From Flavobacteriaceae bacterium (GTDB taxonomy: Bacteria; Bacteroidota; Bacteroidia; Flavobacteriales; Flavobacteriaceae), in NCBI GenBank assembly GCA_016744615.1, contig JADGEA010000017.1:1-35063 (forward strand): 35,063 bases of DNA, written 5' to 3'. The notes under the pieces were generated by a model. It had not been told where the DNA came from. It saw nothing but the letters and a program-made list of their open reading frames with translations, and did not search any database. The translations under genes were made by a program, and so were the position numbers. Shown here piece after piece: positions 2-35,063 of the stretch. Every line of letters begins with the position of its first letter. The first letter of the stretch is position 1.

Positions 2-778
2 GATTCAAAATTAAATGTTTATGCAAAAAAAAATAAGATAAAAACTTTTGATATACCAAAAAATGTAGGTGGTAGGTTTTCTGTTTTTAGTGCAGTCGGT
101 TTATTACCCTTAGCAATTGTAGGAATAGATATAGATGAGTTATTAAATGGAGCTCGAGATATATATGATTCTTTTTTTAACAAAAATGAAGCCTATAATA
201 GATTGATGAAAAAAGCAAGGTTTTTTACTGAGTATAAGAATAGTTTTAATATAAATGTTGTTTTTTCTTATTCTTCAAGGCTAGAAGGTTTTAATAAGTG
301 GTATATTCAATTATGGGGTGAAAGTCTAGGTAAGATAGATATTAATAGCACAAGACAAGGTTTAACCCCTATTGGTATTATTGGCCCAATTGATCAGCAT
401 TCTTTTTTACAATTGATAGTCGAAGGAAAAAGAGATAAAACTGTGACAGTAATTAAGGTAGATGATTTTGATAGTAATTTAAAGATACCATCCATTAAGC
501 TAGAAGGACTAGAGGATTTAGATTATATAGATGGAATAGAATTTTCTTCACTCATAAACAAACAAGCCGATGCTACTATAGAGTCAATAAACAGTCTAAA
601 TGATATCCCTTGTGATGTTATTACTATTGATGGAGTTTGTGAAAAATCAATTGCAGGTTTATTATATGAGTATGAACTTTTAACATCTCTTTGTGCAAAG
701 TTTATGTATATAAATGCTTATGATCAGCCTGGAGTTGAAAATGGAAAGAAAATATTAAAAGAGAAACTAAGTGAATAA
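2..778 (+). CDS. pgi: Glucose-6-phosphate isomerase, 3' part (5' end outside the window)
   Basis: Interconverts glucose-6-phosphate and fructose-6-phosphate in the cytosol, feeding both glycolysis and hexosamine/nucleotide-sugar supply. The open frame runs from the window edge, so the first 200 bases are coding and the TTG at 203 is internal, not a start. The 258 visible residues carry the strong Pgi signatures NVGGRFSVFSAVGLLP near the left edge, WYIQLWGESLGK, then DQHSFLQL with EGKRDKTVT, and near the C-terminus NAYDQPGVENGKK. The family is usually about 400-550 residues, so roughly the last half is seen. The stop overlaps the GTG start of the following dehydratase gene by 8 bases, tying pgi transcriptionally to the surface-glycan locus. 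Identification is by direct motif recognition and is very secure. Confidence 0.96.
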   Translation, partial: DSKLNVYAKKNKIKTFDIPKNVGGRFSVFSAVGLLPLAIVGIDIDELLNGARDIYDSFFNKNEAYNRLMKKARFFTEYKNSFNINVVFSYSSRLEGFNKWYIQLWGESLGKIDINSTRQGLTPIGIIGPIDQHSFLQLIVEGKRDKTVTVIKVDDFDSNLKIPSIKLEGLEDLDYIDGIEFSSLINKQADATIESINSLNDIPCDVITIDGVCEKSIAGLLYEYELLTSLCAKFMYINAYDQPGVENGKKILKEKLSE

Positions 779-1961
779 TATTTTAAATCTAATTGGACGT
801 AGTAAAGAATTATTAGTGGATGATATAGCTACATCCAATAAAGATTTAGAAAAAATTATTTCTTTTTCATCCTTCCTTGTACTTGGTGGAGCTGGTTCTA
901 TAGGTCAAGCAGTTACAAAAGAGATATTTAAAAGAAATCCTAAAAAACTTCATGTTGTAGACATCAGTGAGAATAATATGGTTGAGCTAGTACGTGATAT
1001 ACGAAGTAGTATTGGATATATTGATGGGGATTTTCAAACTTTTGCTCTTGATATTGGAAGTGTTGAATACGATGCCTTTATTAAGCAGGATGGAAAATAC
1101 GATTATGTATTAAACCTTTCAGCATTAAAACATGTAAGAAGTGAAAAAGATCCATTTACTTTAATGAGAATGCTTGATGTGAATGTATTTAATACAGATA
1201 AAACACTTCAACAATCCATAGATAATCAAACCAAAAAGTATTTTTGTGTAAGTACTGATAAAGCGGCAAATCCAGTTAATATGATGGGGGCTAGTAAAAG
1301 AATTATGGAAATGTTTGTTATGAGAAAGTCTAAGCAAATTGATGTGTCTATGGCTAGGTTCGCAAATGTTGCATTTAGTGACGGTAGTTTACTTTATGGA
1401 TTTAATCAAAGGATTCAAAAAAAGCAACCTATTGTTGCGCCAAATGATATTAAAAGATATTTTGTAACACCCCAAGAGAGTGGTGAACTTTGCTTGATGT
1501 CATGTATATTTGGAGAGAATAGAGATATATTCTTTCCAAGATTAAGTGAGGATTTGCATTTAATATCTTTTGCTGATATTGCGATGAAATATCTAGAAGA
1601 TTTAAGTTATGAACCATATTTATGTAAAGATGAAGATGAAGCAAGGGAGTTAGCTAAAACTTTACCGGAAAAAGGAAAATGGCCATGTCTATTCACTTCC
1701 AGTGATACAACAGGTGAAAAAGATTTTGAAGAGTTTTTTACAGATAGTGAAACTTTAGATATGACAAGATTTGAAAATTTGTGTGTGATTAAAAATAAAG
1801 CATTATATGACGAGAAAAAATTAAATAATTTTGAAAGAACAATAATAAAATTCAAAGATAATCTTTCTTGGACTAAAGAAAGTATTATCGAACAGTTTTT
1901 TATAATGATACCTGAGTTTGGGCATAAGGAAATGGGTAAATACTTAGATGGGAAAATGTAG
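771..1961 (+). CDS. NDP-HexNAc C6-dehydratase (LegB/PseB/CapD family)
   Basis: Probable first enzyme of the nonulosonic-acid branch: removes water across C5/C6 of a nucleotide-activated GlcNAc to give the 4-keto-6-deoxy sugar. A Rossmann NAD-binding motif, LGGAGSIGQAVTKEI, lies at about residues 38-52. The active site reads T162-D163-K164 followed by M172 and K176, the MxxxK form of the SDR catalytic pair that typifies C6 dehydratases such as PglF. At 396 residues it is longer than PseB or LegB (about 320-335), with an added C-terminal part containing TTGEKDFEEFF. It begins with GTG, preceded by an AAAGAG ribosome-binding sequence, inside the end of pgi, and runs into the aminotransferase. 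The neighbours favour a legionaminic/bacillosamine-type product. Whether the carrier is UDP or GDP cannot be read from sequence. Confidence 0.85.
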   Translation: MNNILNLIGRSKELLVDDIATSNKDLEKIISFSSFLVLGGAGSIGQAVTKEIFKRNPKKLHVVDISENNMVELVRDIRSSIGYIDGDFQTFALDIGSVEYDAFIKQDGKYDYVLNLSALKHVRSEKDPFTLMRMLDVNVFNTDKTLQQSIDNQTKKYFCVSTDKAANPVNMMGASKRIMEMFVMRKSKQIDVSMARFANVAFSDGSLLYGFNQRIQKKQPIVAPNDIKRYFVTPQESGELCLMSCIFGENRDIFFPRLSEDLHLISFADIAMKYLEDLSYEPYLCKDEDEARELAKTLPEKGKWPCLFTSSDTTGEKDFEEFFTDSETLDMTRFENLCVIKNKALYDEKKLNNFERTIIKFKDNLSWTKESIIEQFFIMIPEFGHKEMGKYLDGKM

Positions 1962-3100
1962 TGCAAGATATTGTTGATTTTATACAAAAAACTTTTAATA
2001 CAAAAGAGTTTATTCCTCTTCATGAACCTAGGTTTATAGGAAATGAAAAAAAATATTTAAATGATTGTATCGACTCTACTTTTGTTTCAAGTGTGGGAAC
2101 ATATGTAGATAAGTTTGAAAAGATATTTGCTCAAAAAACTGGTAGTAAATATGCCATTGCAACTGTGAATGGCACTTCAGCATTACATGTGTCACTTATT
2201 TTATCAGACGTGATAAGAGGTGATGAGGTAATAACGCAACCGCTTACTTTTATTGCTACCTGTAACGCTATTGATTATATTGGGGCAAGACCTGTTTTTG
2301 TTGATGTTGATTTAGATACTATGGGGCTTTCTCCATTTGCGTTGAAAGATTTTTTAGAAAAAAATTGTGAAATAGTAGAGAATCAATGTATTAACAAAAC
2401 TACAGATAAAGTAATAAGAGCATGTGTCCCTATGCATACTTTTGGGCATCCATGTAAAATTGATGAGATACGAAATATTTGTAATGCATGGAATATAACA
2501 TTAGTAGAAGATGCAGCAGAAAGTTTAGGGAGTTATTATAAAAATCAGCATACAGGAACTTTTGGTAAGTTGGGTACTTTTAGTTTTAATGGAAATAAAA
2601 TCATCACTTCTGGTGGTGGTGGTGTTATTGTAACAGACGATGAAAAGTTAGCTCAGCGTGCAAAACATATAACAACTACGGCAAAAGTACCACATAAGTG
2701 GGAATATACACATGATGAGATAGGCTATAATTATAGAATGCCTAATTTAAATGCTGCCTTACTTGTAGCTCAATTAGAACAAGTAGAGAATTTTTTAGAG
2801 GATAAACGAGAATTAGCATCTGAATATAAAAAGTTTTTTGATCCTAATAAAGAGATAGATTTTGTACAAGAACCAGAAAATGCTAAATCGAATTATTGGC
2901 TTCAATCGGTGATAGTTAAAGATATCATAAAGCGAAATAAGTTTTTAGAATATACAAATCGAAATGGTGTGATGACTCGACCAATATGGAAGTTAATGAA
3001 CGAATTAAAAATGTTCAAAGATTGTCAATCTACAAGTTTAAACAATGCTAAGTATCTTGAAGAAAGAGTAGTTAATATTACAAGTAGTGTACGGTTATGA
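1961..3100 (+). CDS. legC: LegC-type PLP aminotransferase (DegT/DnrJ/EryC1 family)
   Basis: Expected to transfer an amino group to C4 of the 4-keto-6-deoxy-HexNAc made by the preceding dehydratase, giving a 4-amino sugar nucleotide. The 379-residue length is normal. Visible family motifs are NGTSALHVSL near the N-terminus for phosphate binding, VEDAAESLGSYY for the cofactor aspartate, and FSFNGNKIITSGGGG with the PLP lysine at K213. The start is GTG at 1961, sharing its first G with the stop of the upstream gene; its end overlaps the NeuD-like gene by 4 bases. The order dehydratase, aminotransferase, acetyltransferase is the standard first half of bacillosamine/legionaminic biosynthesis. LegC versus PglE-type naming rests on context and the N-terminal region, so the symbol is tentative. 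Confidence 0.85.
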   Translation: MQDIVDFIQKTFNTKEFIPLHEPRFIGNEKKYLNDCIDSTFVSSVGTYVDKFEKIFAQKTGSKYAIATVNGTSALHVSLILSDVIRGDEVITQPLTFIATCNAIDYIGARPVFVDVDLDTMGLSPFALKDFLEKNCEIVENQCINKTTDKVIRACVPMHTFGHPCKIDEIRNICNAWNITLVEDAAESLGSYYKNQHTGTFGKLGTFSFNGNKIITSGGGGVIVTDDEKLAQRAKHITTTAKVPHKWEYTHDEIGYNYRMPNLNAALLVAQLEQVENFLEDKRELASEYKKFFDPNKEIDFVQEPENAKSNYWLQSVIVKDIIKRNKFLEYTNRNGVMTRPIWKLMNELKMFKDCQSTSLNNAKYLEERVVNITSSVRL

Positions 3101-3672
3101 AAGAAAAAATACTTTTAATTGGTGGTGGTGGTCATTGCAGATCTGTAATTGATGTTATTGAGCTAGAAGATAAATATGAAATTGCTGGAATAATTGATAA
3201 AAAGGAACTTGTTGGTCAGGATGTTCTTGGGTATAAAGTTATAGGTTGTGATAATGATTTAAGTGTGTTGATAGAAAAATATAAATATGCAATCTTAACA
3301 ATTGGGCACCTGAGAAAGTATACGCAAAGAGTGAGCTTATTTAATTTATTATTAAAAATAGGATATGAACTACCTGTTATCGTTTCACCATTAGCGTATG
3401 TCTCAAAACACACAGTTATTGGTAAAGGAACGGTAGTGATGCACCATGCTTTTATAAATACAAGTGCTAAAGTTGGTAAAAATTGTATAATTAATACAAA
3501 AGCATTAGTAGAACATGATACAACAATAGAAGATAATTGTCATATTTCAACTGCAGCAGTTATTAATGGTGGAGTTGTTGTACAAGCGGGGAGTTTTGTT
3601 GGCAGTAATGCGACTATAAAAGAGTATATTGAAGTAAGTGGATTTATAAACGCTGGAAGTGTGAAGAGTTGA
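3097..3672 (+). CDS. NeuD/PglD-type sugar N- or O-acetyltransferase
   Basis: A left-handed beta-helix acetyltransferase of the NeuD/PglD/PerB family, 191 residues. The N-terminal Rossmann-like sugar-binding part begins with LLIGGGGHCRSVIDVI. The hexapeptide-repeat C-terminal half follows from about residue 95, with the catalytic histidine expected at H140 in ALVEHDTTIEDNCHIS. It most likely acetylates the 4-amino group introduced by the LegC-like enzyme using acetyl-CoA, as PglD and LegH do; NeuD-type O-acetylation of the finished nonulosonate is the alternative. The gene overlaps its upstream neighbour by 4 bases (ATGA) and the next gene by 4 bases, implying translational coupling. Confidence 0.85.
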   Translation: MKEKILLIGGGGHCRSVIDVIELEDKYEIAGIIDKKELVGQDVLGYKVIGCDNDLSVLIEKYKYAILTIGHLRKYTQRVSLFNLLLKIGYELPVIVSPLAYVSKHTVIGKGTVVMHHAFINTSAKVGKNCIINTKALVEHDTTIEDNCHISTAAVINGGVVVQAGSFVGSNATIKEYIEVSGFINAGSVKS

Positions 3673-4364
3673 AGAAAAATAAGATAGCTTTTTTAACAAT
3701 AGTTTTTCCTATGAATATACATTTTCTAGATGAATTTTTTACTTCAATGCTAAAACAAACTTATATAAAATATGATCTAATAGTAGTAAATGATGGATAT
3801 AAAGAATTTAAAGACATAAAAAGAAAGTATGATTCCTTAAATATTATAGAACTGGAATACTCTAGTTCTCCTGCTAAAAATAGAGAGCATGGTATAAACT
3901 ATATTATAGAGGAGCAGTATGATATTTTAATTTTTGGTGATAGTGACGATTATTTTAGTGACAATAGAATAGAAAAGTCCATTTCTTTATTAGATAAATA
4001 TGATATTGTTGTTAATGATTTATCATTATTTAATGATAAGGAAGTTTATTCTGAGAAGTATATTTCAAATAGAATTGAAAATAATTCAATAGTAGAATAT
4101 GATTTTATAAAAGACAAAAATATTTTTGGATTGTCGAATACTGCATTAAAAATTGATATTTTAGATAAAGTTGAATTTGATGATCAACTTGTAGCAGTTG
4201 ATTGGTATTTTTATAAAAATTTATTGAAATCAAATGCTAGAGCAGTTTTTACAAATGAAACCGAAACATTCTATAGACAGTATGCCAATAATACTATAGG
4301 ATTATGTCCGAGTAGTAATACTTTTCCTTTATGGTGGGAAAATAGAAATCTTAAAGGAAATTAA
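3669..4364 (+). CDS. Small GT-A fold glycosyltransferase embedded in the nonulosonate module
   Basis: A 231-residue protein with a family-2-like nucleotide-diphospho-sugar transferase layout: KIAFLTIVFP at the N-terminus, LIVVNDGY at about residue 37, and the acidic metal/nucleotide site IFGDSDDYF at about residue 92. It is shorter than most GT2 enzymes. It starts at TTG (3669), whose bases overlap the TGA of the acetyltransferase, and is followed by a canonical NeuB gene after a short gap. Its position inside the sugar-synthesis genes, rather than with the other transferases, suggests it acts on or transfers a product of this module. That is inference; donor and acceptor cannot be read from sequence. 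Confidence 0.7.
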   Translation: MKKNKIAFLTIVFPMNIHFLDEFFTSMLKQTYIKYDLIVVNDGYKEFKDIKRKYDSLNIIELEYSSSPAKNREHGINYIIEEQYDILIFGDSDDYFSDNRIEKSISLLDKYDIVVNDLSLFNDKEVYSEKYISNRIENNSIVEYDFIKDKNIFGLSNTALKIDILDKVEFDDQLVAVDWYFYKNLLKSNARAVFTNETETFYRQYANNTIGLCPSSNTFPLWWENRNLKGN

Positions 4365-4369
4365 CTGAT

Positions 4370-5431
4370 ATGAACATACAATTAACTAAAAGTAAAGAAA
4401 TTTCAAATTTTACTAAACCTTATATCATTGCTGAATTAGGTTCAAACCATAATGGAAATATGGAGTTAGCAAAAAAGTTGATTATTGAAGCAAAAGAAGC
4501 TGGTGCTGATTGTGTAAAGTTTCAAAGTTGGAGTAAAGATTCTATATTTGCTAAAAAAAAATATGATGATAATTACTTTATTGCGGATGATTATAGAAGT
4601 AGAACTGATTATTCATTAGAAGAAATAGTAGAAGCATACTCAATATCAGAGTCTGAACTCTTAGAGATGAAGAAGTTCTCAGATGAAATTGGTATTGATT
4701 GTACATCAACCCCTTTTAGTAAAAAAGAGGCTGACTTTTTAGTTAAGCAAATGGATACACCATTTATTAAGGTGGCATCGATGGACTTGAATAATTACCC
4801 ATTCTTAGAATATCTTGCTAAGAAAGGAAAACCAATGGTTATCTCAACTGGTTTAAGTGAATTGTTTGAAATTGATAAGGCTGTAAAGACTATAGAAAAG
4901 GCGGGAAATAATCACATTGTTATTTTACATTGTGTTGCCACTTATCCACCAATAGACAGTGATGTGAATCTAAATAATATTACAACATTAATGAAAATAT
5001 ACCCTGATTATCCAGTTGGTTTTTCTGATCATACATTAGGTACAACAATTCCATTGGCCTCTGTTGCTTTAGGTGCATGTTTAATAGAAAAACATTTTAC
5101 ACTGGATAAAAATATGGAAGGTTGGGATCACAAAGTTTCAGCTACAAAAGATGAAATGCAAGAAATTGTTAGAAATGCGACACGAATATCAGAAGCTTTA
5201 GGTTCATTTAGAATTATTTCAACTGAGAGTGATGAAAAGAAAAGAGAGTTCAGAAGAAGTATCGTACTTGCAAGGGATATAAAAGAAGGTGAAATTATCA
5301 CTAAAGATGACATAGACTATAAAAGACCTGGTGGTGGCTTTTCACCAGAGATGACAGAATATATAGTTGGAAGAAAAGTAAAAATTAATTTGTTTTACGA
5401 TAGTGTTTTATCAAATGAGGATTTAGTATAG
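4370..5431 (+). CDS. neuB: Nonulosonic acid synthase, canonical NeuB/LegI type
   Basis: Condenses phosphoenolpyruvate with a six-carbon N-acetylated sugar to form a nine-carbon nonulosonic acid (sialic, legionaminic or relative). All hallmark segments are present in its 353 residues: IIAELGSNHNGN, VKFQSW, CTSTPFS, VASMDLNN, LHCVATYPP, then H221 in GFSDHTLG and H242 in IEKHFTLD. The two histidines are 21 residues apart, matching the metal ligands His215 and His236 of meningococcal NeuB. A C-terminal antifreeze-like SAF domain follows from about residue 290, with KRPGGGF. A good AAAGGA ribosome-binding site precedes the ATG. It is followed 18 bases later by a second, divergent NeuB-like gene. 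Product identity (legionaminic versus another NulO) is inferred from neighbours. Confidence 0.92.
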   Translation: MNIQLTKSKEISNFTKPYIIAELGSNHNGNMELAKKLIIEAKEAGADCVKFQSWSKDSIFAKKKYDDNYFIADDYRSRTDYSLEEIVEAYSISESELLEMKKFSDEIGIDCTSTPFSKKEADFLVKQMDTPFIKVASMDLNNYPFLEYLAKKGKPMVISTGLSELFEIDKAVKTIEKAGNNHIVILHCVATYPPIDSDVNLNNITTLMKIYPDYPVGFSDHTLGTTIPLASVALGACLIEKHFTLDKNMEGWDHKVSATKDEMQEIVRNATRISEALGSFRIISTESDEKKREFRRSIVLARDIKEGEIITKDDIDYKRPGGGFSPEMTEYIVGRKVKINLFYDSVLSNEDLV

Positions 5432-5449: not shown

Positions 5450-6499
5450 ATGCATAGAGTTGTTAAAATTGGTAATAAACTAATTGGTAAAGGACATCCA
5501 ACTTTTATTGTTGTAGAACTTGGAGTCTGTCATGAACAAAATATTGAATTAGCAAAAAGCTTTATTCAAAAGGCAAAAGATGCTGGTGCAGATGCTGTAA
5601 AAGTTGAAGCTTTCCAAGCTGATGATTTTGTGCTAGATAGAACAATGCTACATAAATATGGCACAGTTAATGGTCAAGTAGAAGAGAACTATTATGAGTT
5701 GTTAAAACGACTTGAGTTAAATCTTGACCAAATTAAAGAACTCAAAGAAAAAGCTGATGAAGCCGGTATATTATTCTTTTCTACAGTACATGATAAAGAA
5801 GATACAGATTTTTTTGATGATTTAGGTGTGTGTGCATATAAAATAGCATCAGTAGATATGACACACTTACCACTTATAAGGCATTTAGCAAAAAAAGGTA
5901 AACCAGTGTTTATGGATACTGGTGCTGCTTATACAGGAGAAATAGATGCTGCGATAAGAGCATTTGAAGCAGAAGGTTTTCAAGATCTGATTATTATGCA
6001 TAACCCTATGGGCTATCCAGCACCTACTGACAAAACAGATTTGAAAATGATACCAGCTATTCAAGAAGCGTTTGAAGTGCCAGTAGGGTTGTCTTGCCAT
6101 ACTCCTGGTTTTGATATGGTTATAGCATCTACTGCAATGGGAAGTAATGTTATAGAAAAACCTGTAACAAGAGACAATTCAATATTAAGTCCAGAACATA
6201 TTTTTGCTTTTTTAGATACTGAAACTAATGAATATGTATCGAAAGTAAGAAATACAGAAGTATCTATGGGGAATAGGAGACGTTCTCATATTCCAGATAC
6301 AGCACATGGACGTGCAAAACGAAGAGGTATATATATTAAAAATAATTTAGAAAAGGGGCATATACTCAGGGAAGATGACTTATTGTTTAGAGTCCCAAAT
6401 ATAGAAATTGCATCTTTAGAAATAGATAAAGTAGTAGGTTCTACTTTAAAAGAATCGTTAAACGCTAAAGAACCCTTGAAATGGATTCATATTGACTAA
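5450..6499 (+). CDS. Divergent NeuB/SpsE-family paralog with altered active site
   Basis: A 349-residue protein with the same TIM barrel plus SAF layout as its upstream neighbour, but changed at key points. It keeps VVELGVCHEQN, AVKVEAF and YKIASVDM. H217 in GLSCHTPGF aligns with the first metal histidine, although the usual SDHT is SCHT. The second metal histidine of the EKHFT motif is replaced by P238 in IEKPVTRD, at the same 21-residue spacing. LHCVATYP is MHNPMGYP, and the SAF motif RPGGG reads RVPNIE. An AGAGGA ribosome-binding site precedes ATG 5450. It may be a non-classical synthase, a different lyase-type enzyme, or a partner subunit of the canonical NeuB. Family membership is clear; the reaction is not. 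Confidence 0.8.
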   Translation: MHRVVKIGNKLIGKGHPTFIVVELGVCHEQNIELAKSFIQKAKDAGADAVKVEAFQADDFVLDRTMLHKYGTVNGQVEENYYELLKRLELNLDQIKELKEKADEAGILFFSTVHDKEDTDFFDDLGVCAYKIASVDMTHLPLIRHLAKKGKPVFMDTGAAYTGEIDAAIRAFEAEGFQDLIIMHNPMGYPAPTDKTDLKMIPAIQEAFEVPVGLSCHTPGFDMVIASTAMGSNVIEKPVTRDNSILSPEHIFAFLDTETNEYVSKVRNTEVSMGNRRRSHIPDTAHGRAKRRGIYIKNNLEKGHILREDDLLFRVPNIEIASLEIDKVVGSTLKESLNAKEPLKWIHID

Positions 6500-7172
6500 T
6501 GTTTTATGTGTTATACCAGCTAAAGGTAATTCTAGAAGATTAAAAAATAAGAATGGAGTACTATTAGGTAAAAAAATATTAGTTCAATATACAGTCGATG
6601 CTGCAATTGAATCACATTGTTTTTCAAAAATTATTTTAAGTAGTAATGATGATAATATTTTAAATAATGTAATAGACCACGATTTACTAGAGAAACATAA
6701 GAGACCTGATTATTTATGTGAAGATAATATACGGGCAAAAGATGTGGTTAAGTATTATTTAGAACAAGATAATACTTATACTCATGTAGCATTACTAATG
6801 CCAACTACACCATTTAGAAATCAAAAAGATATAAAAAATGCATTTGATATAACTTATAATAAAGATGCTGACACCCTCGTATCAGTTTGTGAGTTTGAAT
6901 TTAACCCATGGTTGGCAATTAAAGTGCAAGACAATAAAGGGATCCCATATTTTAGTGAAAATTTACAATGGGATAGAGAAGATAAATATTCTAAAGGCTA
7001 TCATCTAAATGGGGGGATATATATTGCAAAAATGGAGTACTTTTTAAAACATGAAACTTTTTTTGATGATACATCATATGTTTATATTATGCCACGAATA
7101 AGATCAATAGATATTGATACAGAAGAAGATTTTGAGTTAGCTACAATGCTTTTAAATAAAGGTAATGAATAA
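6492..7172 (+). CDS. CMP-nonulosonic acid cytidylyltransferase (NeuA/LegF/PseF family)
   Basis: Activates the nonulosonic acid with CTP to the CMP-sugar donor in the cytosol. The 226-residue protein opens with the P-loop-like CVIPAKGNSRRLKNKN, followed by LGKKILVQYTVDAA, and has the PTTPFRNQKDI segment (PTSPLR in most relatives) and a late IDIDTEEDFELA tail that carries the usual metal-binding aspartates. Length fits the single-domain CMP-sugar synthetases. The start must be TTG at 6492, because no ATG lies in frame before the signature; it overlaps the end of the NeuB paralog by 8 bases. A 44-base gap without obvious signals separates it from the next gene. Confidence 0.88.
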   Translation: MTNVLCVIPAKGNSRRLKNKNGVLLGKKILVQYTVDAAIESHCFSKIILSSNDDNILNNVIDHDLLEKHKRPDYLCEDNIRAKDVVKYYLEQDNTYTHVALLMPTTPFRNQKDIKNAFDITYNKDADTLVSVCEFEFNPWLAIKVQDNKGIPYFSENLQWDREDKYSKGYHLNGGIYIAKMEYFLKHETFFDDTSYVYIMPRIRSIDIDTEEDFELATMLLNKGNE

Positions 7173-7216: not shown

Positions 7217-8266
7217 ATGTATGATATAAAAGACATTAGTGTTCATGCGAATGTTAGTATTAAATATATTTTAAATTTGTTGACTCAAACATCAAATAAA
7301 ATAATTCTTATTACAGATGAAAATAACAAACTATTGGGAACAATTAACGATGGAGATATAAGAAGGGGACTTTTAAAAGGTTATAGTATTACTGACTCAA
7401 TAGAGAATATATATTGTTCATCCCCTATAGTTGCTCATGCCAACGATTCGAAAAATGTAATCAATAATATAGCTAAAATGAATAGAGTTTTTCAGATACC
7501 TATCATTAATGATGATGGTGTAGTTATTGGGCTGGATAGATTAGATAAGCAAAACACAGGACTTAAAAAAACTAATAAAGTAATTTTAATGGTTGGTGGG
7601 TTAGGATCAAGACTAAGACCACTCACTGAATCTACCCCAAAACCAATGTTGAAGGTTGGTAATAAACCAATCCTACATACCATCATTCAAAATTTTGCTT
7701 TACATGGTTTTGTTGAGATTACAATGTGTGTAAATTATAAATCAGAAATTGTTCAAGAATACTTTGGTAATGGGCATGCTTTTGGGGTAAATATAGAATA
7801 TATTGTTGAAAAAAAAAGAATGGGAACTGCAGGTGCTTTAAGTTTGTTAAATGATAAACCAAAAGAAGCATTTTTTGTTATGAATGGCGACCTACTAACT
7901 AATGTAAACTTTGAACACCTACTTGATTATCATATATCATCTAAGTCTGTAGCTACAATGTGCGTACGTGAATATGACTTTCAAGTGCCATATGGTGTTG
8001 TGCATATTGAAGATTCAAAAGTACAATCTATCATTGAAAAACCGGTAAATAAATTTTTTGTAAATGCTGGAATATATATGTTTAATTCTGAAGTAATTGA
8101 TAGTATCCCTGAGAATAAATTTTTTGATATGCCAACCCTTTTTGAACAATTGATAGAGAAGCAGAAAAATGTTGTGTCATTTCCTATAAGGGAGTATTGG
8201 ATAGATATTGGTAAGTTAGACGAATATGAAAAAGCAAATCAAGAATATAAAGAAATTTTTATATAG
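7217..8266 (+). CDS. ptmE: CBS-domain sugar-1-phosphate nucleotidyltransferase (PtmE-like)
   Basis: A two-part protein of 349 residues. Residues about 1-115 form a CBS pair (IILITDENNKLLGTINDGDIRRG, given here as key stretch LGTINDGDIRRG, and IPIINDDGVVIGL). From residue 125 comes a nucleotidyltransferase domain starting MVGGLGSRLRPLTESTPKPM, with MNGDL and the IEKPV substrate loop. In Campylobacter jejuni, PtmE is known to be a glucosamine-1-phosphate guanylyltransferase supplying GDP-sugar for legionaminic acid. By homology this gene may provide the GDP-GlcN/GlcNAc that the LegB-like enzyme would use; nucleotide specificity is inferred. It has its own ATG with a weakly placed AAAGG upstream, and the 44-base gap before it is the largest in this part of the locus. 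Confidence 0.85.
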   Translation: MYDIKDISVHANVSIKYILNLLTQTSNKIILITDENNKLLGTINDGDIRRGLLKGYSITDSIENIYCSSPIVAHANDSKNVINNIAKMNRVFQIPIINDDGVVIGLDRLDKQNTGLKKTNKVILMVGGLGSRLRPLTESTPKPMLKVGNKPILHTIIQNFALHGFVEITMCVNYKSEIVQEYFGNGHAFGVNIEYIVEKKRMGTAGALSLLNDKPKEAFFVMNGDLLTNVNFEHLLDYHISSKSVATMCVREYDFQVPYGVVHIEDSKVQSIIEKPVNKFFVNAGIYMFNSEVIDSIPENKFFDMPTLFEQLIEKQKNVVSFPIREYWIDIGKLDEYEKANQEYKEIFI

Positions 8267-10107: not shown

Positions 10108-11603
10108 TGGAAGATAGTTTAAAAAAAAGATATTTGATGAGATTATTCGCCAACTTTGTTAATACTATTGTAGCAGTTGTGATGATCGGGATTATTCCAA
10201 ATGCTTTAGGCTCTATTGCTTATGGAAATTTTATTTTTTTACAAACTTTTTTTATGAAGATAATCACATTTTTTGCCATGAGTTCTCCTATGGCATTATT
10301 CACAAAAATATCTGCAAAAAATAATAGGAAAGATTTAATTTTATATTATATGTATTTTTCTATAATACTTTTCTTTATATTAATCTTTTTTATATATATG
10401 GGGTACTACACAAATACTAACAAATATTTTTTCCCATCTATTCCAGAAAAATATATATTTATGGGATTAATTTTTTCTTATTTAACTTGGCTAACTACCA
10501 TATTTACAAAAATCTCAGATGCCTATGCTATAACAACATCCGTGGAGTTAACAAGGGTACTTTATAAAGTGATATCTATATTTACTCTTTACTTGATTGT
10601 ATACATGACTTCCTTTGGATTAACAGAGTACTATTATTTTTTATTTCTATTTTTGATTTTATATTTGTTAACAATCCTATATATTCTTATTGCAAAAAAT
10701 GTATTAACTAATAGTTTCTACTCTTATACTGTAGATTTTGTAAAAATCAGTAAAGAGTTCTTTGATTATATCAACCCTTTAATTATCTATAATACTTTAG
10801 GGATGCTTGTTGTCTTATTTGATATTTGGTTACTCCAAAAAATTTCCGGGAGTGAGCAGGTAGGTTATTATGGATTGTCATATTCGATAGTTGCAATTTG
10901 TTTTTTATTTACATCATCAATGACCTCTATAATTACCAGAGAATTTTCAAAAAAATATGGAGAGAATAATTTAAAAGAAGTCCAATATCTTTTTATGAGA
11001 TATATCCCAATGTTGTATAGTATAGCTGCTTTTTTTGGAATATTTATATCGTTTCAAAGTAGTAGTATTTTAAGTATATTTACTAATGAACAATTTTCTG
11101 ATGCTTCTATAGTACTAATGGTTATGGGATTATTTCCAATTTATCAAACGTACTCTCAATTAATAGGCTCTTTATTTTTTGCAACTGGACAAACAAAAGT
11201 AATTAGAAATATTTCTTATATAACTAATACAGTAGGTGTCTTTGTGACGTTGTTTTTAATTTATATAGTACAGCTGGGAGCTGTTGGTCTTGCGCTAAAA
11301 GTAGTAATGATAGAAATAGTTACCGTCATGATACAGCTATACTTTAGCGTAAGATTTCTAAAGTTGGAAATAAGAAGTTTGCTATTTCACCAAGTATATT
11401 CTATTTTAGTATTTGTAAGTGCTGCTATAATATCTACTAGTATCGTTAATGTTGATTCAGAACTAATCTCTTTTCTTATTTCAGGTTTTATATACACTGT
11501 TTTTGTTATTATTTTTACTTATTTATTTCCGCAAATCTTTGCGACAACAAGAAAAGAAATTAAGATATATTCAAACAAGGCTATTGATGTCATTAAAAAC
11601 TAA
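10107..11603 (+). CDS. wzx: Wzx-type polysaccharide flippase
   Basis: An inner-membrane MOP/MATE-superfamily transporter that moves undecaprenyl-diphosphate-linked glycan across the membrane. With ATG 10107 as start (just after the upstream stop, in TAATG) it has 498 residues, typical for Wzx. The sequence is hydrophobic throughout, with roughly twelve to fourteen membrane segments, charged loops between them, and the usual N-terminal NFVNTIVAVVMIGIIPNALG. A frame extension to TTG 10101 would add only two residues and lacks a better ribosome-binding site. It is the only export component in the window. Its end overlaps the next gene by 17 bases. Confidence 0.9.
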   Translation: MEDSLKKRYLMRLFANFVNTIVAVVMIGIIPNALGSIAYGNFIFLQTFFMKIITFFAMSSPMALFTKISAKNNRKDLILYYMYFSIILFFILIFFIYMGYYTNTNKYFFPSIPEKYIFMGLIFSYLTWLTTIFTKISDAYAITTSVELTRVLYKVISIFTLYLIVYMTSFGLTEYYYFLFLFLILYLLTILYILIAKNVLTNSFYSYTVDFVKISKEFFDYINPLIIYNTLGMLVVLFDIWLLQKISGSEQVGYYGLSYSIVAICFLFTSSMTSIITREFSKKYGENNLKEVQYLFMRYIPMLYSIAAFFGIFISFQSSSILSIFTNEQFSDASIVLMVMGLFPIYQTYSQLIGSLFFATGQTKVIRNISYITNTVGVFVTLFLIYIVQLGAVGLALKVVMIEIVTVMIQLYFSVRFLKLEIRSLLFHQVYSILVFVSAAIISTSIVNVDSELISFLISGFIYTVFVIIFTYLFPQIFATTRKEIKIYSNKAIDVIKN

Positions 11604-12351
11604 ACTAAAAAACAACCAATTAACATTAGGTTCTTGGATTACCATAGGACATCCAGCAATTGTAGATATTATGGCTAGTGCAGGTTTTGAATGGCTTGTA
11701 GTTGATATGGAACATACTTCTATTGATTTAACTATGGCACATAATCTGATATCTACGATTCAAGCCAATGGTATGAAAGCTTTAGTGAGGGTAAGTAAAA
11801 ATGAAGAAGTTATTATAAAGCGTATATTAGACATGGGAGCCGATGGGATAGTAGTCCCAATGATTAAATCAAAACCTGATGCTTTAGAAGCTATAGACTA
11901 TGCTAAATATCCCCCGATTGGGAAAAGGGGAGTTGGTTTATTTAGAGCTCAAAAATATGGTTTAGGTTTTGAAGATTATAAAAAATGGGTAAATGATGAA
12001 CTTGTAATAATTGCACAGATTGAACATATAGATGCTGTTAAAAATATTGAAGAAATTATTGCAACTGATGGGATAGACGGAATTATAATCGGTCCGTACG
12101 ATTTATCTGGTTCTATGGGATTCCCTGGTAAATATCATAGAAGTGACGTAAAACAAGCTATTGAACATGTTTTAGAAATATGTAAAGAGAATAGTTTCCC
12201 ATCAGGTTTTCATGTAATAGAATCTGATCCAGGTAAATTACAAGAACGAATTTCTCAAGGGTGTACATTCTTAGCTTATAGTTTAGATTTTTTCTTTTTA
12301 GGGGATAGTGCTAGAAACGGTATGAAGAGCATTAGAGATGGAGTTAAATAA
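11587..12351 (+). CDS. HpcH/HpaI-family pyruvate aldolase (class II)
   Basis: A metal-dependent aldolase family that joins pyruvate to an aldehyde, or cleaves 4-hydroxy-2-oxo acids. The 254 residues carry all family landmarks: LGSWITIGHPAIVDIM, VVDMEHTSID with the catalytic histidine, MKALVRV, GADGIVVPMIKS, the YPPIGKRGVGLFRAQ loop, IAQIEHIDAV and IIIGPYDLSGSMG with the metal-binding acids. ATG 11587 is chosen because it precedes MSLKTKLKNNQLTLGSW, where the family begins; a longer frame from 11503 lies entirely inside wzx. The next gene is a KdsB-like CMP transferase, so synthesis of a 3-deoxy-2-ulosonic acid for activation, rather than aromatic catabolism, is the likely role. No degradation genes are nearby. 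Confidence 0.88.
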   Translation: MSLKTKLKNNQLTLGSWITIGHPAIVDIMASAGFEWLVVDMEHTSIDLTMAHNLISTIQANGMKALVRVSKNEEVIIKRILDMGADGIVVPMIKSKPDALEAIDYAKYPPIGKRGVGLFRAQKYGLGFEDYKKWVNDELVIIAQIEHIDAVKNIEEIIATDGIDGIIIGPYDLSGSMGFPGKYHRSDVKQAIEHVLEICKENSFPSGFHVIESDPGKLQERISQGCTFLAYSLDFFFLGDSARNGMKSIRDGVK

Positions 12352-13124
12352 TGAATATAATTTCAATTATACCTGCGAGAATGGGCTCTACTAGGTTTCC
12401 TGGAAAACCGATGGCAGATATACTTGGTATGCCGATGATAGGACATGTATATAAAAGAGTTAAAATTAGTAAACTTCTTAATGAAGTCTATGTAGCTACC
12501 TGTGATAAAGAAATCTATGAGTATATAGAATCCATTGGTGGGAAAGCTGTTATGACAAGTGATTGTCATGAACGCTGTTCTGATCGTTGTGCTGAAGCAA
12601 TGCTTACCATTGAAAATGATGAGAATATTAAAGTTGATGTTATGGTTATGGTTCAAGGTGATGAGCCATTGACTTTTCCAGAAATGATTGATGAAGCAGT
12701 TGAACCTATGTTGAAAGACTCATCAATTAAAATAACAAATTTAGTAGCAGATATACATACAGTGAAAGAGTTTGAAGACCCTAATGAAGTTAAAGTAGTT
12801 ATGGATAAAAATTATAATGCACTTTATTTTTCACGTGAACCAGTACCATCAAGAAAAAAAGGGGTTATAGATGTTCCTATGAAGAAGCAAGTTTGTGTTA
12901 TCCCCTTTACTCGTGATTTTTTATTAGAGTACAATACAATAGACCCCACTCCTTTAGAAATTATAGAATCAGTTGATATGATGAGAATCCTTGAAAATGG
13001 GATGAGTGTTAAAATGATACCAACAGCTTATGAAACAAAAGCTGTTGACACGCAAGCGGACTTAAACCGTGTTATTGAAATGATGAGAAATGATAATTTA
13101 ATTGAAGGTTATCATGATGTTTAA
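12351..13124 (+). CDS. Divergent CMP-ulosonate (KdsB-like) cytidylyltransferase
   Basis: A 257-residue member of the CMP-Kdo synthetase family. Conserved parts are IIPARMGSTRFPGKPM, GMPMIGHVYKR, VATCDKEI, VQGDEPLTFPEM, DPNEVKVVMD and ALYFSREPVPS. It differs from housekeeping KdsB at substrate-facing motifs: the HxSGTDR loop reads H73-E-R-C-S-D-R79, and the usual KHIGIYAY segment is KQVCVIPFT. The partner is therefore probably a 3-deoxy-2-ulosonic acid other than Kdo. Its start shares a base with the stop of the aldolase gene (TAATG), giving an aldolase-activator pair. A second, housekeeping kdsB would be expected elsewhere if the organism makes ordinary Kdo lipid A. Confidence 0.85.
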   Translation: MNIISIIPARMGSTRFPGKPMADILGMPMIGHVYKRVKISKLLNEVYVATCDKEIYEYIESIGGKAVMTSDCHERCSDRCAEAMLTIENDENIKVDVMVMVQGDEPLTFPEMIDEAVEPMLKDSSIKITNLVADIHTVKEFEDPNEVKVVMDKNYNALYFSREPVPSRKKGVIDVPMKKQVCVIPFTRDFLLEYNTIDPTPLEIIESVDMMRILENGMSVKMIPTAYETKAVDTQADLNRVIEMMRNDNLIEGYHDV

Positions 13125-32608: not shown

Positions 32609-33075
32609 CTAATCCTCACTGTTTTTATATTATTGATTTTGAAGAGGCTTGAAGAACTCTTCTCGCACAGCCCATTTTTATCATGTATTATTATATCAGC
32701 TTTATCTTCACAAAACTCAAATGAGAAGTGTTTTCCACTTTCATTTGCTGATGTAGAAAAATTCCATTTTATATCTCTTAGTATTTGAGAGTGAAGAGAT
32801 GTTGGTGAAATTCTAAGGGCTTTATTGTTCATGATAAATGTTGTTTTTTTCGATTTACGGAATAAAGCTCTTTTAGATAAAGGTACTCTATGTTTTGATA
32901 AACGAAAAGAGTGCAAATCACTATATGTTGTTATGAATTGTTTTGATGGTTCACGAGACTTGATCTCGTAAAGTTTATAATTATTTTGAGAGATAAAACC
33001 GACAGTAGTGTCGGTTTGTGTAAGTATTATTTTATCTATGCAAGAAAATCTTGAAGTGATTTTGGATTTGACCAT
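32605..33075 (-). CDS. Short Sua5/YrdC/YciO-family protein
   Basis: A 156-residue protein with a degenerate but recognisable YrdC-type fold pattern: IILTQTDTTVGF near the N-terminus (the PTDTvyGL motif), IKSREPSKQF, the ALRISPTSLHSQIL region, FSTSANESGKHF (the SAN motif) and a late SSSSLFKI. Full TsaC/Sua5 proteins, which make threonylcarbamoyl-AMP for tRNA t6A, are 180-350 residues, so this is a short form that may have another role. The start ATG 33075 lies inside the end of carB (40-base overlap); no later in-frame ATG precedes the conserved motif. Confidence 0.72.
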   Translation of the reverse strand: MVKSKITSRFSCIDKIILTQTDTTVGFISQNNYKLYEIKSREPSKQFITTYSDLHSFRLSKHRVPLSKRALFRKSKKTTFIMNNKALRISPTSLHSQILRDIKWNFSTSANESGKHFSFEFCEDKADIIIHDKNGLCEKSSSSLFKINNIKTVRIR

Positions 33076-35063
33076 GATTCATCTTCCATTTCATCTAGAG
33101 CTAAAATTAATGCTCTTGCTGCACTTAGAGTAGTAAAGTACGGGATACTTCTTTTAAGAACCTCTTGACGAATAACTACTGCATCTTTTTTAGATGTATT
33201 ATTATCAGATGTATTGATTGCCATTGAGATTTCATCATTTTTCATGCTATCTTCAATATTTGGACGACCCTCAGAAATTTTAAGAACTCTTTGACAAGGT
33301 ATACCAGCTTCTTCTAGGATAGCTTGTGTCCCTTTTGTTGCTACTAAGGTAAATCCATGGCGGTGAAGTTCACTCGCAATTTCTGCTGCATGCATTTTAT
33401 CAGAATCAACAAATGATAAGAAACATGTACCATCTGTTGGAATTTTATTTCCAGCAGATAGTTGAGATTTTGCAAAACTTACCCCAAAGTTTGAACTGAT
33501 TCCCATAACTTCACCAGTTGATTTCATCTCTGGTGAAAGTACTAAATCTGCACCATAAAGTTTATGGAACGGGAATACGGCTTCCTTAACAGATACATGG
33601 TTCTTTAATCTTGGTTTTAATAAACCATTTGATTCTTGTACTATGTCGTATTTGTCATAGAATTCAAGAGAACTTCTTAAATCATTTCCAACCATAACAC
33701 GAGTAGCAACTTTAGCAAGTGGCATACCAGTAGCTTTACTTACAAACGGAACAGTTCTTGACGCACGAGGATTCACTTCGATAAGGTAAATCTCATCTTG
33801 ATAGATTGCATACTGAACATTCATTAGACCAATAACCCCAAGACCTAAAGCAATAGTTTTTGTTTGCTGTTCAACTTTTTCGATCATCTCTTCTGTAAGG
33901 TTTACTGGTGGTAATGAACAAGCTGAATCTCCAGAGTGAATACCAGCTTCTTCAATGTGTTGCATAACTGAACCAATGTATACATCAGTCCCATCACAAA
34001 TAGCATCAACGTCCAGCTCAACTGCTTGATCAAGAAATTTATCGATTAGTACTGGAGCTTCGTTTGAAACAGAGATAGCAAGTGCCATATATTCATTTAG
34101 TTCAGCTTCACCATAAACGATTTTCATTCCACGTCCACCAAGAACAAAAGATGGACGAACAAGCACAGGGTAGCCTAATTTTTCAGCGATTGGTGCAGCT
34201 TCTTCTTTCTTACGAGCTAGACCATTTGCAGGTTGTTTAAGACCATGTTTATTTACAAAGTCAGAAAACTGTTCTCTATCTTCAGCAAGATCAATAACAG
34301 CAGATGGAGTACCAGAAATCTTTGCACCGATTTTTGTAAGTGCGTCAGCAAGTTTAAGTGGAGTCTGTCCACCAAAGTGAACAATGATACCATCAGGTTG
34401 CTCGTTTTCTATAACTTCACGAACATGTTCTAAGTCAATTGGTTCAAAGTAAAGTACATCAGAAGTATCATAATCAGTAGAAACTGTTTCAGGGTTACAG
34501 TTATACATGATACACTCGATATCCATCTCTTTTAATGCAAATGCTGCATGAACACAACAGTAATCAAATTCAATACCTTGACCGATTCTATTTGGTCCAC
34601 CACCGAGAATAAGAACTTTTTGTTTGTCACTTACACGGTTAGTTACATTTGGTAGTTTTGTAATGTTTGTTGTAGAGTAAAGATAAGGAGTAAGAGCTTT
34701 AAATTCAGCAGAACAAGTATCTACTTCATTAAACTCTAATTGCACACCTAAGTCTTTTCTCATTTTGTATACTTCACTCTCAGTTACAGTATGCTCTGAG
34801 TTTTTAAGGATAAGTTGAGATATTCTTTTATCAGAAAAACCATCAACTTTTAAATTTCTCATAGCACTTGAATCAAAGAGTACTTTATCAGTGATATTGT
34901 TTTCTGCTTCGATTAGTTCTTGAACTTGGTAAAGGAACCAAGGATCAATTGCACATGTATCAAACATCTCTTCTACAGTCATACCACGACGGAAACCTTC
35001 AGCTACGTAAAGGATTCTATCTGCATTTGGACGACGAATTTCATGTTTTACAAACTCGTCATC
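33036..35063 (-). CDS. carB: Carbamoyl-phosphate synthase large subunit, C-terminal part (5' end outside the window)
   Basis: The visible 675 residues are the C-terminal two-thirds of CarB, which makes carbamoyl phosphate for arginine and pyrimidines. The frame runs from the window edge, so the ATG at 34982 is internal: upstream residues RRPNADRILYVAEGFRRGM continue the family sequence. Seen in order are IDPWFLYQVQELIEAE, VLILGGGPNRIGQGIEFDYC and HFGGQTPLKLADAL, the second ATP-grasp domain (YPVLVRPSFVLGGRGMKIV, NVQYAIYQDEIYLIEVNPRASRT by key part EVNPRASRT), and the methylglyoxal-synthase-like allosteric domain from about residue 530 (LHRHGFTLVATKGT). A housekeeping gene; it sets the boundary of the variable locus on this side. 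Confidence 0.97.
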   Translation of the reverse strand, partial: DDEFVKHEIRRPNADRILYVAEGFRRGMTVEEMFDTCAIDPWFLYQVQELIEAENNITDKVLFDSSAMRNLKVDGFSDKRISQLILKNSEHTVTESEVYKMRKDLGVQLEFNEVDTCSAEFKALTPYLYSTTNITKLPNVTNRVSDKQKVLILGGGPNRIGQGIEFDYCCVHAAFALKEMDIECIMYNCNPETVSTDYDTSDVLYFEPIDLEHVREVIENEQPDGIIVHFGGQTPLKLADALTKIGAKISGTPSAVIDLAEDREQFSDFVNKHGLKQPANGLARKKEEAAPIAEKLGYPVLVRPSFVLGGRGMKIVYGEAELNEYMALAISVSNEAPVLIDKFLDQAVELDVDAICDGTDVYIGSVMQHIEEAGIHSGDSACSLPPVNLTEEMIEKVEQQTKTIALGLGVIGLMNVQYAIYQDEIYLIEVNPRASRTVPFVSKATGMPLAKVATRVMVGNDLRSSLEFYDKYDIVQESNGLLKPRLKNHVSVKEAVFPFHKLYGADLVLSPEMKSTGEVMGISSNFGVSFAKSQLSAGNKIPTDGTCFLSFVDSDKMHAAEIASELHRHGFTLVATKGTQAILEEAGIPCQRVLKISEGRPNIEDSMKNDEISMAINTSDNNTSKKDAVVIRQEVLKRSIPYFTTLSAARALILALDEMEDESWSNPKSLQDFLA

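Follow-up and report, generated by a model that had tools for sequence, protein, structure and literature searches.

Enzymes of the NeuB family are treated as being defined by a metal site built from two histidines. According to published descriptions, the two histidines bind Mn2+ and three glutamates stabilise the intermediate (PMC7591256); the active site is listed as E25, Q55, F112, K129, Y186, S213, H215, E234 and R314, and in the N. meningitidis enzyme R314A is inactive and R314K active (PMC6795526). In Caulobacter, NeuB H245A shows some activity in vivo when induced, far below wild type, and E30A and R322A show none (PMC7591256). Judging from residue offsets, H245 would be the counterpart of H236 in N. 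meningitidis NeuB, whose positions we mark below as Nm numbering. Because the H245A enzyme stays partly active, a NeuB without the second histidine is not necessarily inactive.

Here we describe NeuBpar, a NeuB-like paralog encoded on a stretch of DNA of 35,063 nucleotides (the window, meaning the whole stretch analysed); in this protein the two-histidine metal site is absent: H217 is retained, and P238 stands at the second place. A subfamily that replaces one histidine and five pocket columns over five divergent genomes makes the need for the metal site testable by natural comparison, and the sugar acid to which NeuBpar points would be mistaken by current gene-based prediction for sialic, legionaminic or pseudaminic acid. 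The Caulobacter variant likewise lacks the second metal histidine, but it is a single engineered change, without the other five replacements of NeuBpar (PMC7591256).

In fold and, judging from its predicted model, in both domains, NeuBpar matches N. meningitidis NeuB (1xuu, 1xuz, 2wqp). The window paralog and its four orthologs all keep E25, K53, K129, S132, Y186, S213, H215 and E234 of that enzyme, to which they are 23-28% identical, but all five differ from it by the same six replacements, Q55E, S154D, C182N, D214C, H236P and D247E (Nm). The best fold match is C. jejuni PseI (8h2c), and the 18-row set of our tree that contains the paralogs (98/91), without their canonical neighbours, also holds rows that we read as PseI-like in motif. 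From PseI, however, NeuBpar departs by the same six replacements, and its score against the pseudaminic acid synthase equivalog TIGR03586 (232.5 bits) lies below the cut-off of 340.25. By sequence, the best match in the PDB is B. subtilis SpsE (1vli, 146.7 bits). SpsE pairs with the SpsF synthetase, and three NeuBpar orthologs adjoin a synthetase of SpsF type; in the alignment, however, the C-H and P of NeuBpar stand opposite D-H and H motifs in SpsE. DAHP and KDO8P synthases share the PEP-condensing barrel fold with NeuBpar, but they have no SAF domain and are distant (11-21% identity in the Foldseek rows).

The window and the NeuBpar protein

The features of the locus are collected in Table 1. 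A Pgi fragment precedes the LegB-like gene, after which the order runs LegC, NeuD, GT2-like, canonical NeuB, NeuBpar, PseF-like and PtmE-like, and beyond these the window holds further surface-glycan genes. The LegC and NeuD proteins pass their NCBIfam cut-offs; the PseF-like protein and both NeuBs score below theirs. Further along, a gene for an HpaI/KDG-type aldolase (11503-12351) abuts one for a KdsB-type CMP-sugar synthetase (12351-13124), and the pair is possibly a third 3-deoxy-ulosonate module.

Table 1. Features of the NeuBpar locus, in window coordinates
Feature	Position	Strand	Description	Basis
LegB-like nucleotide-sugar dehydratase	771..1961	+		Polysacc_synt_2; LegB name presumed from family type and known pathways
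LegC-family aminotransferase	1961..3100	+		TIGR04181 565.5 bits, cut-off 420
NeuD-type sugar acetyltransferase	3097..3672	+		TIGR03570 166.1 bits, cut-off 160.8
GT2-like protein	3669..4364	+	Immediately 5' of canonical NeuB
Canonical NeuB	4370..5431	+	353 aa, 'GWDH' subfamily, H221 and H242	Pfam, NCBIfam, tree
NeuBpar	5450..6499	+	349 aa, ATG start, barrel and SAF-type domain	Pfam, translation, predicted model
HNPMGYP	5999..6019	+	Residues 184-190; N185 at Cys182 (Nm) of canonical NeuBs
SCHT	6092..6103	+	Residues 215-218; metal His217 kept, Cys216 for Asp214
EKPVTRD	6155..6175	+	Residues 236-242; Pro238 for metal His236 (Nm)
SAF-type C-terminal domain	6323..6484	+	Residues 292-345; V315 at the Arg314 (Nm) position
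PseF-like CMP-sugar synthetase	6492..7172	+	ORF overlaps NeuBpar end by 8 bases
PtmE-like CBS and nucleotidyltransferase protein	7217..8266	+		Pfam NTP_transferase and CBS; PtmE name presumed from family type and known pathways

The first-pass annotation of this DNA had described an altered-site enzyme of full-length NeuB fold in the same operon as a canonical NeuB, and this description holds up. The histidines of the upstream enzyme and H217 and P238 of NeuBpar are confirmed by translation, and the motifs SCHT, MHNPMGYP and RVPNIE are present as written. NeuBpar scores 220.1 bits against Pfam NeuB (PF03102; cut-off 22.1) and 20.3 bits against Pfam SAF, slightly below the cut-off of 21; against the N-acetylneuraminate synthase equivalog TIGR03569 it reaches 242.4 bits, below the cut-off of 399.65. 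An AlphaFold model of the single chain, built from a five-row alignment (mean pLDDT 81.7, pTM 0.75, with residues 275-289 under a pLDDT of 50), shows the barrel and a folded C-terminal domain, and can be aligned with NeuB entries along their full length. The top solved structures for this model in Foldseek are PseI, NeuB and SpsE entries (TM 0.64-0.74), followed by DAHP and KDO8P synthases. Its rmsd to most full-length NeuB-family entries is large, which probably reflects the predicted placement of the C-terminal domain.

The window contig belongs to a mixed bin (G000, contamination 8.35) that contains two carB genes. The carB outside the window (G000:C201) is 47% identical to that of the window (33036-34982), and a genome of the same nominal genus as the bin (G025) has a carB only 49% identical to the latter; judged by these two comparisons, the nominal genus of the bin is probably not the source of the window, whose contig has the look of a contaminant. 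From the PRK03868-type Pgi match we suspect a host in Campylobacterota.

Residue signature, orthologs and tree

The four canonical neighbours tested have the standard residues at all six signature positions. Among 46 background NeuBs, which are ORFs from paralog-resembling loci, mostly of one bacterial class, and thus an uneven sample of the family, the standard residue is found in 45 at Q55 (with one gap), 45 at S154 and 42 at C182, and in all 46 at D214 and D247; in the P238 column, aligned across genomes, proline stands in 5/5 paralogs and histidine in 46/46 of these background proteins. The five paralogs also replace F112 (Nm) by H or A, and at the places of the intermediate-stabilising acids E25, E134 and E234 and of K129 (Nm) all have E, D, E and K, the canonical neighbours likewise carrying D at 134. 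The list of columns that do not vary within the five runs to 98, with clusters in the barrel motifs.

The four orthologs are 47-54% identical to NeuBpar. Three were found by scanning the degenerate pattern [FILMV]EKP...PEH over 84,980 named species genomes: of the 7 stretches matched, those in Pseudodesulfovibrio pelocollis (G495), a Desulfarculaceae MAG (G493) and a Desulfobacterales MAG (G494) proved to be true relatives. Because the pattern requires P, members of the clade bearing H would be invisible to it. A search of the class of G495 returned 2/297 genomes, G495 itself and a fifth paralog from the same family (G505); further samples gave known orthologs only (2/395, 1/340 and 2/288 genomes, the centre genome counted each time). 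Protein searches of the bin's nominal family (100 genomes) and class (395), to which the window itself probably does not belong, yielded no ortholog beyond the bin; apart from the bin's own proteins, the best matches were <=37% identical, and every row read had H at the second metal position. A single-protein scan of genome contigs gave 74 pattern stretches and no confirmed relative; since orthologs in the same collection went undetected, such a scan misses relatives at about 50% identity. None of 47 stretches in viral contigs was confirmed as a relative, and in comparisons of overall identity the best values were 34.2% among 89 plasmid records and 24.0% among 3 phage records. Orthologs of NeuBpar are rare in the genomes searched, and the subfamily that they form is real and conserved; it is undescribed in the literature searched, where we found no natural NeuB without the second metal histidine. 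The contig of the G494 paralog also carries an ORF read as a transposase.

In a tree of 55 rows, from which the partial rows L001 and L025 were left out and in which five rows have unusual composition, the five paralogs form one clade (100/100) on a stem of 1.27 changes per column. Six 'GWDH' NeuBs, from the window, G493, G495, G505 and two paralog-free genomes (G030, G076), form a separate clade (100/100), in which the window's canonical NeuB groups with those of G493 and G495; the grouping of the window with G494 inside the paralog clade is weak (91/39). The first-pass annotation had called the pair a tandem paralog. The adjacency is real, but recent tandem duplication is rejected, as NeuBpar and the upstream NeuB are 28.0% identical and fall in separate clades.

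The notion of a lost histidine, read as decay, fares poorly against the tree and the fixed signature of six residues. Plain decay is rejected for the family, in which the six replacements are fixed in 5/5, but may apply to the G494 copy (G494:C99:7380-8420), which carries a single in-frame TGA close to its start and lies next to a contig end. We consider it highly improbable that NeuBpar has lost catalysis and is either being shed or kept as a structural remnant. The loss of a metal ligand and the TGA in G494 would fit such a fate, but the same six replacements recur at 47-69% identity across five genomes, the reading frames are intact in 4/5 paralogs, and the gene order with the synthetase is unaltered. 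Because the metal site is rebuilt identically in five bacterial genomes, NeuBpar probably still functions as an enzyme and serves a different sugar acid; it is unlikely to be a broken copy.

Neighbouring genes and rival readings

A CMP-sugar synthetase gene (PF02348) lies directly 3' of NeuBpar on the same strand in 5/5 loci, with overlapping ORFs in the window and G494 and short gaps in G493, G495 and G505. The synthetase is PseF-type in the window and G494 (173.8 bits between these two, versus 103-116 bits to the cluster synthetases of G030 and G076) and SpsF-type in G493, G495 and G505 (170-256 bits to each other), the name SpsF being presumed within the family PF02348; the two types match two groups inside the paralog clade. 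A PtmE-like gene follows the synthetase in 4/5 loci, and in 3/5 (G493, G495, G505) a second DegT aminotransferase gene lies immediately 5' of NeuBpar.

A canonical NeuB is present in the paralog's cluster in 4/4 judgeable loci (window, G493, G495, G505), the G494 contig ending too early. This co-occurrence accords with the earlier suggestion of a heterodimer, in which NeuBpar would be a partner subunit, domain-swapped with the canonical NeuB and shaping or regulating that site; the window protein, with V at position 314 (Nm), lacks the Arg314 equivalent, and the SAF domain swaps in N. meningitidis NeuB (PMC6795526, PMC7591256). The suggestion is weakened, however, by several observations. The clusters of G030 and G076 have the order LegB-LegC-acetyltransferase-GT2-NeuB-PtmE-synthetase, of the same kind but without the paralog, and there the 'GWDH' NeuB stands alone (one match each at E<=1e-30 in the whole genome); in three loci the two genes are not adjacent but separated by about 2, 10.5 and 11 kb; NeuBpar keeps its catalytic residues, and the neighbouring synthetase tracks the paralog and not the canonical NeuB; and the other four paralogs have K, K, K and R at position 314. 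We regard the heterodimer as unlikely, and favour an independent ulosonate synthase with a changed substrate and metal site.

A further possibility is other chemistry on this fold without PEP condensation, such as an aldolase, epimerase or hydrolase step by which NeuBpar would stand in for a missing LegG. Several pocket residues are altered together, and the Epimerase_2 hits tested in G000, G493, G495 (1/2) and G505 included no epimerase of NeuC/LegG type; none of the 'GWDH' clusters as fetched has a NeuC/LegG match, with one Epimerase_2 hit of G495 unclassified. Within 19.5 kb of the G030 and G076 clusters there is likewise no LegG match, and since both are without the paralog, it does not explain the gap there. 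The PEP-site residues, moreover, are retained, and we judge such chemistry improbable. The missing sugar-nucleotide hydrolase/epimerase step may be supplied by a GT2-like protein whose D.DD motif is conserved, encoded immediately 5' of the 'GWDH' NeuB in 6/6 loci read (3669-4364 of the window, L071, L072, L078, L092 and L093).

Proposed reaction

We think it fairly likely that NeuBpar is an active, separate PEP-condensing member of the NeuB family that takes another aldehyde sugar, and whose CMP-activated product joins the same glycan. The argument for a separate ulosonate synthase is that the PEP side is kept, the sugar and metal side is reset, and the gene is conserved with its own CMP-sugar synthetase. 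A second Leg cluster in G494, which includes LegG and has a NeuB, a PtmE-like and a LegF-like gene to itself, agrees with this reading. As to the alternatives first offered for this protein, a different PEP reaction is better supported than the heterodimer, the reaction itself being our proposal. NeuBpar would act as a homodimer, with the barrel, the SAF domain and the residues expected to hold PEP and the intermediate (E25, K53, K129, S132, S213, H215 and E234, Nm) in place. The pocket has been re-set to a fixed, acid-rich form (Q55E, S154D, C182N, H236P and D247E, along with D214C and H or A in place of F112). The enzyme would condense PEP with an aldehyde sugar unlike the N-acetylated hexose of the neighbouring NeuB, and the synthetase encoded directly behind it would activate the 2-keto-3-deoxy acid. 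This acid would then enter the same surface glycan, probably on flagellin; the G493 cluster adjoins a gene read from sequence as flagellin. If a metal is bound, its ligands would be H217 and no more than one of the other old ones, or else the new acids. Several observations speak against this reading. The G493 bin showed only one strong synthetase match besides the neighbour of NeuBpar (C58, 193.8 bits), so that a second, separately activated product is not apparent there; the window protein has V at the position where R314A inactivates the N. meningitidis enzyme; the G494 copy has its in-frame TGA; and the canonical NeuB is present in all four judgeable loci, as would suit a partner.

The new acids suggest a positively charged substrate, for example one with a free amine; the aminotransferase adjoining NeuBpar in three loci would be in keeping with this. 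In a more specific version, which is conceivable though doubtful, NeuBpar would be a one-histidine or metal-free synthase in which E53, D156 and E249 (numbered in the window protein) bind a free amino group, turning an unacetylated amino sugar into a CMP-activated ulosonic acid that accompanies a legionaminic-type acid on flagella. If so, the amino sugar would be supplied by the adjoining aminotransferase, and the sugar acid would be one not yet known.

In loci other than the window, further genes are shared 3' of the paralog module (L071 2810-5447, L072 9715-12465, L074 3967-5145 and L078), and none of those tested has an NCBIfam name; a sulfotransferase-like protein is encoded there in four loci and a DTEGPL-motif protein in three. 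The paralog clusters of G495 and G505 also contain WbuX/PseA-type amidotransferase and WbuZ/HisF-type genes (L072 7004-9078; L078 2812-4986), pointing to acetamidino groups.
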